Shown here piece by piece: positions 8,884 through 18,680 of a DNA stretch of 44,236 nucleotides. Position 1 is the stretch's first letter. Each line of letters begins with the position of its first letter. Source of the stretch: Candidatus Gastranaerophilales bacterium (GTDB taxonomy: Bacteria; Cyanobacteriota; Vampirovibrionia; Gastranaerophilales; Gastranaerophilaceae); the NCBI GenBank assembly GCA_944325945.1, contig CALVBW010000003.1, positions 1-44,236 of the forward strand. Reading direction: 5' to 3'. The notes under the pieces were generated by a model that had not been told where the DNA came from, made no database searches, and was given only the letters and a program-made list of their open reading frames with translations. A program made the position numbers and the translations under genes.

Positions 8884-9831
8884 TCATTTCCATGGGTAGT
8901 CGTTTTTGATTTGCCAACCATCCATGATTATTAAATTGGCACAAGCATATCCTCTGCCTGTACCATCAGTTTTGCAGGTCGAAGAACCGGATGTTGTTAA
9001 TTCTTCTCTTGTTAATCGAAAATGAAATCCGCCATTCGTGAATTGTTCATATGTACCCGGTACAAATTGTCCTTTTAAAGATTTCGGGTACGGTACAATT
9101 GAAAATACAAATACATCGCGCCCGTATCGGTTTGGTCCTTTGTAACCGTTTATATCTACATTTATCCGCAGGTGTGTTTTGGGTCTATTCAGGGGATTCG
9201 GAGCATTTAAGAATGGGTATCCGTTAAAGGCAAGTAACTTTCCATCAGGTAGAACATATTGCGGTTTAGCATTTTCATAGGAGCCTGAATCGTCAAAATC
9301 TCCTTCTAAGGTTTTCCAGGTATAATCCGGTTCCTTTTCGATTTTTTTAACCCCTTTTAAATACGGCAATATGTATAGTTCAGCAAAATCATTACCTTCA
9401 TTTGATAAAGTATTCCATGCCCATGTCTCAACATCACCATTTTCTGCAACAGAACGTCCATATGCCTGGCTGAATAACGAATATGTCTTTTTTAAACCAA
9501 CGATGGTCATTAATTTTTGATAATTCGCAATCAAAGTCGGAATGGTCATGGCAGCGACAACGCCGATTATGCCGAGGGTGATTAGCACCTCAGCGAGGGT
9601 AAACGCGGCTTTTTTAGAAGATACTAAGTTACTAAGGCAGTAAGGCACTAAGAATTTTCTGTGAGCTTCGCTCACTAATTTGTCATGCAGAACTTTACAA
9701 AGCGAACCAAAATTTTTGTCATGCTGAACTTGTTTCAGCATCTCATTAATTTTTTGAGATCCTTCGGCTAACATTTCAGGATGACCTGTAAAGTTACACA
9801 AAAACCTAATATGGTGTCGTGCCTCAGGCAC
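8884..9831 (-). CDS. Prepilin-like protein with uncertain, possibly phase-variable start
   Basis: The core begins at KKAAFTLAEVLITLG (codon 73 onward, near base 9615): a prepilin peptidase site followed by a hydrophobic helix, then a globular domain with VDINGYKGPNRYGRDVF near the C-terminus, as in type IV pilins and pseudopilins. The upstream ~70 codons read through palindromic repeat DNA (MLKQVQHDK-type text) and have no pilin character. The frame's first start is a GTG at 9831 without a Shine-Dalgarno; an internal GTG at 9648 gives a shorter leader. The only well-formed start nearby is the ATG at 9925, with GGAGG six bases upstream; it is one base out of frame because of a G11 tract at 9878-9888. 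Loss of one G would give a continuous gene 8884-9925. A true mobile start, a decayed leader or an assembly error are all possible. Confidence 0.7.
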   Translation of the reverse strand: MPEARHHIRFLCNFTGHPEMLAEGSQKINEMLKQVQHDKNFGSLCKVLHDKLVSEAHRKFLVPYCLSNLVSSKKAAFTLAEVLITLGIIGVVAAMTIPTLIANYQKLMTIVGLKKTYSLFSQAYGRSVAENGDVETWAWNTLSNEGNDFAELYILPYLKGVKKIEKEPDYTWKTLEGDFDDSGSYENAKPQYVLPDGKLLAFNGYPFLNAPNPLNRPKTHLRINVDINGYKGPNRYGRDVFVFSIVPYPKSLKGQFVPGTYEQFTNGGFHFRLTREELTTSGSSTCKTDGTGRGYACANLIIMDGWQIKNDYPWK

Positions 9832-9841
9832 CTCAGGATGA
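9661..9841. repeat. Cluster of small palindromes (dispersed repeat) in prepilin 5' region
   Basis: Several short hairpins in a row: GTGAGC-TTC-GCTCAC at 9661-9675, TGCTGAA/TTCAGCA at 9722-9740, TCTCA/TGAGA at 9741-9759, GTGCC-TCA-GGCAC at 9819-9831. The word CAGGATGACCTG occurs near 9778 and AGGATGACCTG near 9835. This looks like dispersed intergenic repeat material that stays open in the prepilin frame. Whether it is translated is unknown. Confidence 0.6.
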
Positions 9842-9871
9842 CCTGAAAAAGAGTAGTGTTCGGAGGTTAAG

Positions 9872-9925
9872 CTACTGCCCCCCCCCCCTGAGTGAAAAGT
9901 AGTCGTGATGCGTATTTGCGCCCAT
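9872..9925 (-). other. Leader ORF with Shine-Dalgarno interrupted by G11 tract
   Basis: On the minus strand GGAGG (9932-9936), six bases, then ATG at 9925. The frame reads MGANTHHDYFSLRGGGQ and stops at TAG (9872-9874) right after eleven Gs (9878-9888 as C11 on the plus strand). With ten (or seven, or thirteen) Gs the same frame continues without a stop into the prepilin ORF. An inverted repeat GGAGGCTAA / TTAACCTCC (one mismatch) could fold over the Shine-Dalgarno. This fits a phase-variable switch, but a homopolymer sequencing error gives the same picture. Confidence 0.55.
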
Positions 9926-9992
9926 TTTTAGCCTCCAAAATTATTATATAACATGTCAATTATATCAATTTTTATTGAATAAGGCAAGATTT

Positions 9993-10772
9993 TTAGAATA
10001 TGTTAGAGTATGATAAAAAGTATTCGCTAATGATATTCAACAGCATAGGCAGAATCCAGACCATGATAGCTGCGCCCAGAACAGGTTTGAACAAGAAGCT
10101 TAATTGAAAAACGTTTACCTGCGGCGCTGTTTTAGAAATTACCCCGAGGATTATATCCTGTCCTAACGTGGCAAGCAAAATCGGTGACGCTATTTGAAGC
10201 CCCATAAATAATACGTTTGATGATATGCTTATTAAATAATCCATATTAACAAGTTTGGCTAATGGAATGCTGGTCGCAAATATCGGAAAAATTTCAAAAC
10301 TTCGCATCAGCGCTCTGATTAACCAGTACGCGCCGCCGAGATTTATAAATATCAACAGCCCGAATAACGCCATAATTTTGCCTAAAAGTGATACCTGACT
10401 TGATGTTGTCGGTTCTAAAACCATTGCGGAGGAAAGCCCCATTTGCATATTTATCATATCGGCTCCCGCATCTACCGCCAATAATATTAATTGTGCCATA
10501 TATCCGATTAATGCACCCACAACTATGTTTAAAAATATTGACAGTGCAAAAGAATCCATTACCATAAGACTATCAGGCTTGACAAACGGAGTAATAACAA
10601 TCGTTAAAATTAAGCATAATGCAAGCTTTACCATCCCGGGAATTTCTTTTCTGTTAAAAATAGGCGCCAGTCTCATAAACCCGATGAGCCGCGAAAATAC
10701 CATAATACCTGCTGCAAGTGCGGTATTTAGCACAGGAAACATTTTCATTAATTCCGCGAGAATAATATCCAT
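9993..10772 (-). CDS. fliR: Flagellar/type III export apparatus protein FliR
   Basis: 259 residues, the normal FliR/SctT length. Multiple membrane helices, with the typical N-terminal RLIGFMRLAPIFNRKEIPG (entry of the FliR family, where an 'aPifg...iP' pattern is conserved) and the central DMINMQMGLSSAMVLEPTTS segment. FliR forms the export gate with FliP and FliQ in the inner membrane inside the basal body ring. Its start codon overlaps the stop of the preceding gene (TAATG), showing translational coupling. Last gene of the minus-strand export cluster. Confidence 0.92.
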   Translation of the reverse strand: MDIILAELMKMFPVLNTALAAGIMVFSRLIGFMRLAPIFNRKEIPGMVKLALCLILTIVITPFVKPDSLMVMDSFALSIFLNIVVGALIGYMAQLILLAVDAGADMINMQMGLSSAMVLEPTTSSQVSLLGKIMALFGLLIFINLGGAYWLIRALMRSFEIFPIFATSIPLAKLVNMDYLISISSNVLFMGLQIASPILLATLGQDIILGVISKTAPQVNVFQLSFLFKPVLGAAIMVWILPMLLNIISEYFLSYSNIF

Positions 10773-11143
10773 TATTTACCGCCTTTCATATCAGGAACCG
10801 GCGGTTCCGGTATTTCAATTACATCAGGCGGATTGTCCATTTGAAAATATTCAAAACCTTCCGCAGGTTTTATAAAAGTCTTTTTGTCGGTTATTTTGAC
10901 ATTTAAAACTTTTTCACCGTCAATCGTATTAATTATTATATCGGTTTTGCCTTCTGCTAACGGAGTCAGGATAATTATTTTTTTTTCGTTACTTATTGTA
11001 AAAACAGGTTGGGCTTCAATTATATTTTTATTTTGGACGGTTACGGATTTGACAATTGAGTTTGAAACAATCATGTAGTCCTCAAATGCCAGTGCAGGTT
11101 GTATAATATTTATTAGCAAAATAGTTAATATGAATTTTTTCAT
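10772..11143 (-). CDS. Exported protein with pilus/secretin N-domain-like fold
   Basis: 123 residues. A signal peptide is clear (MKKFILTILLINIIQPALA, cleavage near residue 19). The mature part has short alternating strands (IVKSVTVQNKNIIEAQPVF, then EKKIIILTPLAEGKTDIIIN), the pattern of the 'pilus formation protein N-terminal' domain of CpaC/RcpA secretins, where it precedes the secretin pore. No secretin domain follows. A short Pro-rich tail ends the protein. Its place between fliQ and fliR, coupled by TAATG to fliR and 2 bp from fliQ, implies a periplasmic part working with the export gate. This is not a standard flagellar gene. Confidence 0.7.
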   Translation of the reverse strand: MKKFILTILLINIIQPALAFEDYMIVSNSIVKSVTVQNKNIIEAQPVFTISNEKKIIILTPLAEGKTDIIINTIDGEKVLNVKITDKKTFIKPAEGFEYFQMDNPPDVIEIPEPPVPDMKGGK

Positions 11144-11145
11144 AA

Positions 11146-11634
11146 TTATCTTCCTAAAATTCTATTTGTTTCCACAAAATCAGGCCGCGGCATAGGAGTT
11201 CTTGAACTTGGCAGGTATTTCATTTTTTGCTGACTGTCTATAAAAGGAACTTTGCCCGGATTTTTCATAATATCATTGATTTTGGAATTATTGTCAAATC
11301 GGTCATTCATTTCACCTGCAAATGGTGTTGTGTATTTGTAATAATCAGACGACAGAACGTAAGTTTCATTTCTCGGAACAACATTGAAAGCAAGAGCCAT
11401 GCCGTCTGTAAAAAGGTTTGTAAGAATCCTTATGAAACCTACTCCGCCAATGATTATCACTAAAAATACGGCAAGAATTTTTGGTGCCGCGGCAATTGTT
11501 TGTTCTTGAACCTGCGTTACTGCCTGTAAAATACCAACAACCAGACCGATACCTGCAGCAACAAGTACACATGGCATTGATATTGCCAGCATTACCATAA
11601 ATCCTCTCGCTAAATATTCTATTAAAGGTTCCAT
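11146..11634 (-). CDS. fliQ: FliQ-like export gate protein with long C-terminal extension
   Basis: Residues 1-88 have the FliQ/SctS form: two membrane helices around a short loop with GIGLVVGILQAVTQVQEQTI, the conserved Q-x-Q-E-x-T/S region, and PKILAVFLVIIIGG. FliQ is usually about 89 residues; this one has 162, with a further ~74 hydrophilic residues (YVLSSDYYKYTTPF to the end) that I do not recognise. The gene lies between fliP and the secretin-N-like gene, with gaps of 8 and 2 bp. Confidence 0.88.
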   Translation of the reverse strand: MEPLIEYLARGFMVMLAISMPCVLVAAGIGLVVGILQAVTQVQEQTIAAAPKILAVFLVIIIGGVGFIRILTNLFTDGMALAFNVVPRNETYVLSSDYYKYTTPFAGEMNDRFDNNSKINDIMKNPGKVPFIDSQQKMKYLPSSRTPMPRPDFVETNRILGR

Positions 11635-11642
11635 AATTCTCC

Positions 11643-12284
11643 TTAATTGTAACTTGTAACCAGCCCCTGTACAATTAATGCCCAGCCGTCTACCGCAATA
11701 AATATTAAAAGTTTAAACGGCAGTGATATAATTGTCGGCGACAGCATAAACATACCTAGTGCCAGAAGTATGTTTGCTACCACAAGGTCTAATACTATAA
11801 ACGGAACAAATATTATAAATCCGATTTCAAAAGCTGTTTTTAATTCGCTTATAATAAATGCCGGAGCAACTTGCCATATGGTAATTTCTTCAGGCGATTT
11901 GGGCGGTGTTTTTTGCGATAATTCAACAAAAAACGCCAGATCGGATTCTCTTGTTTGTTTCATCATAAATTCTTTTAAAGGTTTTGAGCCTTCACTTATT
12001 GCCTCAATCATATTTTGGTTTTTGTGATACGGAACAGATCCCAGTTCATACATTTTTGAAAATGTTGTGCCCATTGTATAGAACGTCAAAATCATTGCAA
12101 GTCCTATAATAACAATAGATGGCGGTACCTGCTGTGTGCCGAGTGCCGTTTTGAGCATTGAAAATACTATGACAAATCTTAAAAAACTTGTCATACAGCA
12201 AAAGACAAACGGTATAAGAGAAAATACCGTCATGACTATCAATAATTGTAAAACAGGGTTTATATCTTTTAAAACTGTATCCAT
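11643..12284 (-). CDS. fliP: Flagellar/type III export apparatus protein FliP
   Basis: 213 residues with the FliP/SctR pattern: N-terminal helix with FSLIPFVFCCMTSFLRFVIV, LGTQQVPPSIVIIGLAMILT, a hydrophilic periplasmic section, then PAFIISELKTAFEIGFIIFV and GMFMLSPTIISLPFKLLIF near the end. FliP makes the five-copy core of the export gate. It lacks the long cleaved signal peptide of enterobacterial FliP, and its length is nearer to SctR. Nine bases separate it from the FliO-like gene. Confidence 0.93.
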   Translation of the reverse strand: MDTVLKDINPVLQLLIVMTVFSLIPFVFCCMTSFLRFVIVFSMLKTALGTQQVPPSIVIIGLAMILTFYTMGTTFSKMYELGSVPYHKNQNMIEAISEGSKPLKEFMMKQTRESDLAFFVELSQKTPPKSPEEITIWQVAPAFIISELKTAFEIGFIIFVPFIVLDLVVANILLALGMFMLSPTIISLPFKLLIFIAVDGWALIVQGLVTSYN

Positions 12285-17276: not shown

Positions 17277-17302
17277 ATTATAACATAAAATTAATCTGTC
17301 AA
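17277..17302 (-). promoter_or_regulatory. Probable rnpB promoter
   Basis: Reading the minus strand: TTGACA (17297-17302), 14 bases, TATAAT (17277-17282), then about seven bases to the mapped 5' end of rnpB. Both boxes match the sigma-70 consensus but the spacer is short; TCCTTG three bases further away gives a 17-base spacer. It overlaps the stop codon of the prepilin gene. Confidence 0.55.
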
Positions 17303-17998
17303 GGATGAACTTACCTGCAATGCTTCTCTTGCCCAGCTTTGTTCCTCCGGAATTTCAATAGTTCCGTCATTACTTATTTCCATTGAAAATCTGTCGAAAT
17401 TTTTGGTTCGTGATTTGCAGGCATTATCAGCGTCAGAATCTCCCTGAAGACAATTTGGTTTTTTGTCACCGTTTACATCAACTGTAATGACATGTGTGTT
17501 GGCACCAAAACCTTCAGGGTGATATTTTGTGCGTAAATCCCAGTTGATACCATCTGGTGTTGTAAATAGTCTACAAATTTTCCGGTAGCTCTGTCCTCCG
17601 GGAGCTATTGAAGGAGGTGCATCTGGATCAATAGTTACTGCCGGGCATTCATCTTCAATTTCACCGTCAACGTTTAAATGCACCGCAAATAATCCTATAA
17701 ATTTTGCAGCTTTGTCTTGTATGTTGGTTCCGCCATAGTTTTGTCCTGCATATGTTACTTCATCCGTATTGTCAAATCCTACTCGTGTAGTGCCGCTATT
17801 GTCTACAGGTGCATATAAATTAGGATCATTTATCATGTCACTTACAATATTAGCAGTCGTGTAATATGCCCTTTTCATCATAATTTTATTCTGGTTCGGC
17901 ATTGTCCTGAGTATTGCGGGAAGTACTGTCGCGCATAATATGCCAAGTACCGTTAAGGCTATCATTAGTTCTGATAATGTAAATGCTGTTTTTTTCAT
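17291..17998 (-). CDS. Type IV prepilin-like protein
   Basis: 235 residues starting MKKTAFTLSELMIALTVLG: a short basic leader, then F as first mature residue with E at +5 and a hydrophobic helix to ~30, the full prepilin signature. After the helix comes MPNQNKIMMKRAYYT, nearly the same as in the next gene, and the C-terminal part has VDVNGDKKPNC and FDRFSMEISNDGTI. These also match the neighbour at 18009-18680, so the two are tandem paralogues. Expected location is a pilus or pseudopilus in the envelope after cleavage by a prepilin peptidase (not in this window). GGAGGA precedes the ATG. Confidence 0.85.
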   Translation of the reverse strand: MKKTAFTLSELMIALTVLGILCATVLPAILRTMPNQNKIMMKRAYYTTANIVSDMINDPNLYAPVDNSGTTRVGFDNTDEVTYAGQNYGGTNIQDKAAKFIGLFAVHLNVDGEIEDECPAVTIDPDAPPSIAPGGQSYRKICRLFTTPDGINWDLRTKYHPEGFGANTHVITVDVNGDKKPNCLQGDSDADNACKSRTKNFDRFSMEISNDGTIEIPEEQSWAREALQVSSSLTD

Positions 17999-18008
17999 AT
18001 TCCTCCAT

Positions 18009-18680
18009 TTATTCTGTTAATGATGAATTTACCTGAATAGATTCCATTGCCCATTTATCATCGGAATGTATCTTGACGGTTCCGTTTGCATAAAGTTTCA
18101 TTCTGAATTGATCAAAGTTATCAGACCTGTTTTTGCAATTATCTGAATTGCTTCCTTCATAACAGTTAGGTTTTTTGCTGCCGTTGACATCAACGCCTAT
18201 TAAAATACTATCTGTGTAACTTCCTTTTGTTAATACGGATTTTTCAAACGCCCAGCTCATGTTATCATCAGTAGTCAGGTAATAACATGATGAACCAACA
18301 CCGTTACAGTTGGCATTCCCGCTTTTTGAATAGGTTGCATCAGTTTTTATTGTATTTTCATCGGGTATTCGTTCATTTTTTGTGGATAGTCTTTTTGAAA
18401 AAAGATACGGGAATTTGGAATCTGCCTCTGCACAGTCAAATCCTATATAACCCCCATCACCGTTGTCCGGACATAAACCGTAAATTACAGGGTAGTTTTC
18501 AGAATCGTTGATTAAATCATGCGTTATATCAAGAAATACAGTGTATGCCTTTTTCATCATCATTCTGTTCTGGTTTGGATTGTTGTTTAAAAGCCCCGGC
18601 AGTACTATTGCGCATAATATTCCGATTACTGCTATTGCTACCATCAGTTCTGTTAAAGTGAATGCTTTGAAATTTTTCAT
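18009..18680 (-). CDS. Type IV prepilin-like protein (tandem paralogue)
   Basis: 223 residues starting MKNFKAFTLTELMVAIAVIG, a class of leader with the cleavage site before F and E at +5. NPNQNRMMMKKAYTVFLDIT follows the helix. VDVNGSKKPNC, NFDQFRMKLYANGTV and a terminal SIQVNSSLTE are shared with the paralogue downstream, which ends LQVSSSLTD. The gene has AGGAAG before its ATG and lies 10 bp before the second prepilin gene, so they form an operon. Cysteines at corresponding positions suggest conserved disulphides. Confidence 0.85.
   Translation of the reverse strand: MKNFKAFTLTELMVAIAVIGILCAIVLPGLLNNNPNQNRMMMKKAYTVFLDITHDLINDSENYPVIYGLCPDNGDGGYIGFDCAEADSKFPYLFSKRLSTKNERIPDENTIKTDATYSKSGNANCNGVGSSCYYLTTDDNMSWAFEKSVLTKGSYTDSILIGVDVNGSKKPNCYEGSNSDNCKNRSDNFDQFRMKLYANGTVKIHSDDKWAMESIQVNSSLTE

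Follow-up and report, generated by a model that had tools for sequence, protein, structure and literature searches.

Results

The prepilin locus in the window

The window (the whole stretch of 44,236 nucleotides that was analysed) is contig C3 of a Gastranaerophilales MAG of 1.63 Mb and 98% completeness, and on its minus strand it holds a type IV prepilin-like gene behind a run of eleven Gs (Table 1). The Shine-Dalgarno (9936-9932) is followed after a gap of 6 nt by the ATG (9925-9923), and the frame that opens there translates, as assembled, to MGANTHHDYFSLRGGGQ and a stop. With one G less, the same start gives a frame of 346 aa that runs through FTLAEVLITLG to the stop at 8884. The initial annotation had read this arrangement from the letters, with ten (or 7 or 13) Gs as the lengths that open an uninterrupted frame into the prepilin, and every detail of it that was tested on the minus strand is right. 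It had also stated that the prepilin frame has no start with a Shine-Dalgarno of its own, and this was borne out: none was found in the unshifted pilin frame at the window gene, where the mechanical ORF begins at GTG 9831 and carries the PF07963 match at its residues 72-96 (27.3 bits in the genome scan). The long leader between the tract and the pilin helix, which had been called odd, is there as well, in the form of an open spacer of dispersed-repeat sequence. At the tract there is also an inverted repeat, GGAGGCTAA / TTAACCTCC.

Table 1. Positions of the features at the tract-bearing prepilin locus of the window.
Feature	Position	Strand	Basis
TATAAT -10 element, likely promoter of the pilin transcript	9943..9948	-	window sequence and genome-wide TATAAT counts
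Shine-Dalgarno GGAGG	9932..9936	-	sequence
Leader ATG and codons up to the tract (MGANTHHDYFSL + A of AGG), leader type B	9889..9925	-	sequence, translation, same leader at ten further genome loci
G11 tract, OFF length; in-frame lengths are 10, 7 or 13	9878..9888	-	sequence, translation
TAG that ends the leader frame at G11	9872..9874	-	sequence
TTAACCTCC, can pair with the Shine-Dalgarno; occlusion predicted in 11/11 type B copies	9862..9870	-	
Spacer, 91 codons of dispersed repeats, open in the pilin frame only	9604..9877	-	frame/stop analysis
Prepilin body, begins FTLAEVLITLGIIG (N_methyl, PF07963), ends at the stop codon	8884..9603	-	

Directly upstream of the pilin gene, at 9993-12284 on the minus strand, lie the export genes FliR, FliQ-like and FliP, so an export apparatus of flagellar or related type is probably present in the organism. 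At 17291-17998 and 18009-18680, also on the minus strand, the window has two prepilin genes that lack a tract and whose leaders are of the ordinary short kind; both belong to the 29 N_methyl genes of the genome without a nearby run.

Homopolymer tracts in the genome

A run of eleven Gs had been thought striking, and the genome count agrees with this: there are 59 G/C runs of at least nine (47 of nine, six of ten and six of eleven), where about 0.5 (independent bases) to 0.9 (Markov) would be expected by chance. Among the 65 runs of at least eight, 56 precede a prepilin-type N_methyl match by no more than 700 bases, and such a run is found upstream of 56 of the 85 N_methyl genes in the genome; most of the remaining nine runs are a few hundred bases from a contig end. 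Within the translated 5' portion of this type of surface gene, homopolymers of at least eight are thus far commoner than chance predicts, and gaining or losing one unit opens or truncates the frame, as is expected of phase variation.

In the stretches that were analysed, those around the tracts and some of the prepilin genes, the loci have a common plan, realised with at least three unrelated leaders: each has its own TATAAT, Shine-Dalgarno and ATG, followed by 6-13 codons, a G/C run and an early stop, with the pilin one base out of frame with the leader. Leader family A (MRNKEFKNVGGGRLL and a stop) has G9 and needs one G more, family B, that of the window, has A+G11 or AA+G10 and needs one G fewer, and family C (MLKKVVQKAVQIVAPP..) has C9 and needs one C more. 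The type B leader of the window recurs at ten other loci in the genome, which makes 11 copies. As assembled, L019, L033, L059 and L065 are in frame, the spacers of L010 and L038 contain a stop, and nearly all the other loci of the genome are OFF by one base. A perfect TATAAT is present at 37 of 62 loci, compared with 8.6 expected in shuffled upstreams, and its most frequent position is about 30 nt upstream of the ATG. At one type A locus (G000:C30:106390-106410) the run is interrupted (G8 A) and the OFF frame is retained; this is possibly a locked OFF allele.

The genome has an A24 prepilin peptidase (one PF06750 match) and four PF00437 matches to the T2SSE ATPase, so both a peptidase and an assembly ATPase accompany genes with the N-terminal methylation/cleavage motif, as would be expected for type IV prepilins. 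The short leader peptide that normally precedes the cleavage site is missing: between tract and FTLAE the spacers of the same-genus loci have a median length of 76 codons (range 8-195), 107 residues precede FTLAE in the window gene, and for this reason we call the genes prepilin-like. The spacers are built from dispersed repeats (GTCATCCTGA.., CAGCATGACA..) that are open in the pilin frame, and the prepilin leaders reach about 200 residues.

Selection on the fused frame

Between tract and FTLAE, the 8776 codons of 114 same-genus loci have 2 stops in the pilin frame and 747 and 962 in the other frames; these loci were deduplicated, but being related they do not count as independent trials, though the difference between the frames is very large. 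When only the 3431 codons before any possible internal start are counted, the numbers are 2 in the pilin frame against 303 and 426. The spacer sequence itself is very variable across the 114 loci and of repeat type. For pilins that are OFF in both of two species, dN/dS was 0.24, 0.17, 0.0, 0.13, 0.09 and 0.08. The few stops, together with dN/dS values of 0.0-0.24, argue that the fused frame of leader and pilin is translated, and that the pilin genes are functional, under purifying selection and not decaying.

Tract length and state in related genomes

Type A cores were found in 11 of 15 other genomes of the genus and in none of 24 genomes from other genera. Exact G9 runs are present in all 16 genus genomes examined, with 2 to 48 per genome, and the exact runs summed over the genus, some of them away from pilins, were 51 G8, 530 G9 and 141 G10. 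Among 85 scored same-genus leaders (a few loci counted twice), 11 have G10 and are in frame as assembled, and three more have A+G9 and retain the ON frame; the in-frame share of the 114 deduplicated loci is about 15%.

Loci with matching upstream flanks of about 1 kb can differ in state, with G10 in L130 and G9 in L047, G10 in L166 and G9 in L127 and L029, G10 in L059 and G9 in L108, and G10 in L068 and G9 in L084 and L086; here different species are compared, and such loci frequently swap their leader codons and spacers, so the difference may stem from recombination and not from slippage. No second strain of the window's species was found in the named genome collection. Recombination is thus also reshaping the tract loci. 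L067/L105, L149/L151 and L187/L189/L190 are 93-100% alike downstream of the tract, and their leader codons are unrelated, so the tract is often the point where homology starts; it seems that loci trade leaders and pilin cassettes with one another.

The plan recurs in other genera of the family, where the leaders are unrelated and the tract lengths differ (G8, G9, G10). All six scored loci of genome G022 have G8, are OFF and need one more, and all scored loci of G021 have G10, are OFF and also need one more. G016 has mostly G10 and needs one fewer, with nearly all scored loci OFF, and G018 has a mixture of G9 OFF and G10 ON, with several loci ON. In G014, one species of the genus itself, the leader of loci L212-L221 (MLKSEAMT..FKTLGGG, then a stop) ends immediately past G9; most sampled spacers there hold stops, an internal MKKTVKNLITWSPSHLITS start precedes the pilin, and the tract may work differently or be decaying.

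Inverted repeat and RNA structure

It had been suggested that the inverted repeat around the tract might add control. The repeat is real, and the Shine-Dalgarno is predicted to be paired in 11 of 11 type B copies (on average 0.033 unpaired, compared with 0.275 when the downstream sequence was shuffled), which is suggestive only, the 11 copies being related. Sequestration of the Shine-Dalgarno by a post-tract anti-Shine-Dalgarno was rejected as a general switch, since the larger leader family, type A, shows no such effect (unpaired 0.740 native and 0.728 shuffled), and no general effect of RNA structure at the tracts was found across leader families. A conserved short leader ORF that acts as a regulatory uORF is unlikely, because the position of the leader stop moves between species. 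For programmed slippage one conserved slip direction and a signal would be expected; the loci have +1 and -1 leaders, and runs of G as well as of C.

Discussion

Slipped-strand phase variation of a large and mostly OFF prepilin repertoire is in our opinion the best explanation for these loci, and we hold it to be probable. The window site would be one of about 60 homopolymer switches, nearly all of them before type IV prepilin-like genes. Each pilin gene would use its own promoter, Shine-Dalgarno and ATG, and after 6-13 leader codons the ribosome would pass over a stretch of 8-11 Gs or Cs. At the usual tract length the leader frame would stop soon past the run and no pilin would be made (OFF), and the gain or loss of one G or C at DNA replication would join the leader to the open spacer and the prepilin (ON), the product of which would be cut by the prepilin peptidase at the FTLAE motif. 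In each cell most pilins would be OFF and a changing few ON, giving a population with many pilus compositions. The sequences show the architecture, the frame relations, the selection on the fused frame and the pilins, and the state differences at matching flanks, and we infer length change at replication, switching within a clone and resulting differences between pili. Homopolymer phase variation of a surface pilin was what the initial annotation had proposed, and with paralogous loci by the dozens, unrelated leaders in other genera, and in-frame and out-of-frame versions with matching flanks it has become the best-supported reading.

That leaders call for length changes in both directions, and that both G and C strands are used, fits a mechanism at the DNA level. 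It speaks against this reading that the majority of loci are OFF and that one of the two OFF frames predominates, since random drift is not sufficient to explain this bias without a length bias or selection for OFF. A loss of mismatch repair was rejected as the cause, MutS1 and MutL being present in the genome, so that repair is not obviously lost; mismatch repair is also present in other phase-variable bacteria.

The main rival is that the frame is restored in the RNA, by RNA polymerase slippage or programmed ribosomal frameshifting at a fixed small in-frame share, with the genes OFF by design. The OFF majority does have one direction within each leader family, 100% of the scored G021 and G022 loci are OFF, the frame is preserved despite tract changes (A+G11 and AA+G10), and both frames pass through the tract. 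However, +1 leaders, -1 leaders and coding-strand C runs coexist, and no single ribosomal or polymerase preference fits them all; moreover, in-frame alleles exist (11 G10 and three A+G9 of 85, and the ON loci of G018), and neither the immediate stop nor the anti-Shine-Dalgarno hairpin is conserved between leader families. We find such recoding unlikely, and we are just as doubtful of a designed OFF state in which about 60 pilins would be made at a low, noisy level by RNA polymerase or ribosome slippage in either direction on the G or C runs, with DNA length change as a second layer, which if true would give a hedged pilus mixture in every cell. Another thought is that translation of the pilin begins at an internal site past the tract and that the leader is regulatory only. 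At 24 of 97 OFF loci the spacer has an in-frame ATG/GTG/TTG with a Shine-Dalgarno-like match, and an internal start is plausible at L013 and the G014 loci, but there is none at most OFF loci, the window gene included, and stops are avoided in the pilin frame between the tract and the first possible start (2, against 303 and 426 in the other frames), which makes this very improbable.

Even less can be said for miscounted tracts and genes that are always in frame. Homopolymers are error-prone and the sequences are MAGs, but leaders that are one too long (type B, G016) are found alongside leaders that are one too short (type A, G021, G022), and a systematic miscount could not produce both signs; in addition, many independent assemblies agree and Illumina reads poly-G tracts of this length accurately (PMC6321876). 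It is as hard to believe that the genes are decaying pilin pseudogenes with starts broken by repeat insertion, an idea close to the decaying start that the initial annotation had thought possible from the long leader. Spacers made of dispersed repeats and the spacer stops of L010 and L038 would agree with it, but the spacer is kept open, with 2 stops per 8776 codons, and pilins with both orthologs OFF have dN/dS values that point to purifying selection.

The proposed slipped-strand switching has parallels in other bacteria. In Neisseria, poly-G is found in the secretion-leader region of pilC, and pilE/pilS are many pilin copies that recombine, with one expressed pilE and silent partial copies. 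The loci described here are alike in the poly-G of the leader region and in the many pilin copies, but every copy has its own promoter, start and switch. In Bifidobacterium breve, G-tracts are present in the sortase-dependent pilus genes bbr_0113 and bbr_1889, deep sequencing gave a range of tract lengths in the population, and pili were produced when the tracts were engineered in frame (PMC9187656). This host is a gut commensal as well, and it has a short upstream ORF with start signals, a G run and a pilin in a different frame without its own Shine-Dalgarno, the two ORFs being joined by replication slippage. B. breve differs in having sortase pili, Sec signals and two loci per genome, whereas here the hosts are of the Cyanobacteriota lineage, and about 60 loci encode type IV prepilins behind a long spacer filled with repeats. 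Campylobacter is alike in its many poly-G tracts per small AT-rich genome, a length peak at 9 and 10, and frame switching; 53% of its phase-variable poly-G tracts are 9G and 26% are 10G, and each strain has 5-81 phase-variable genes (PMC6321876). The G8/G9/G10 profile of the genus (51/530/141) resembles these lengths, but the Campylobacter tracts are spread over many gene families, and here nearly all are in prepilins at a fixed leader position.

A literature search turned up no relevant report of phase variation in Gastranaerophilales or Melainabacteria. If phase variation is the true explanation, this set of homopolymer switches, which falls almost wholly in a single gene family, the type IV prepilins, is among the larger ones known, and its hosts are uncultured gut relatives of cyanobacteria. 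The G9 runs in all 16 genus genomes, and the same plan with unrelated leaders elsewhere, suggest that variable pili have been selected for strongly and repeatedly in the gut. Gene-calling programs will overlook the tract-bearing pilin genes or place their starts wrongly.
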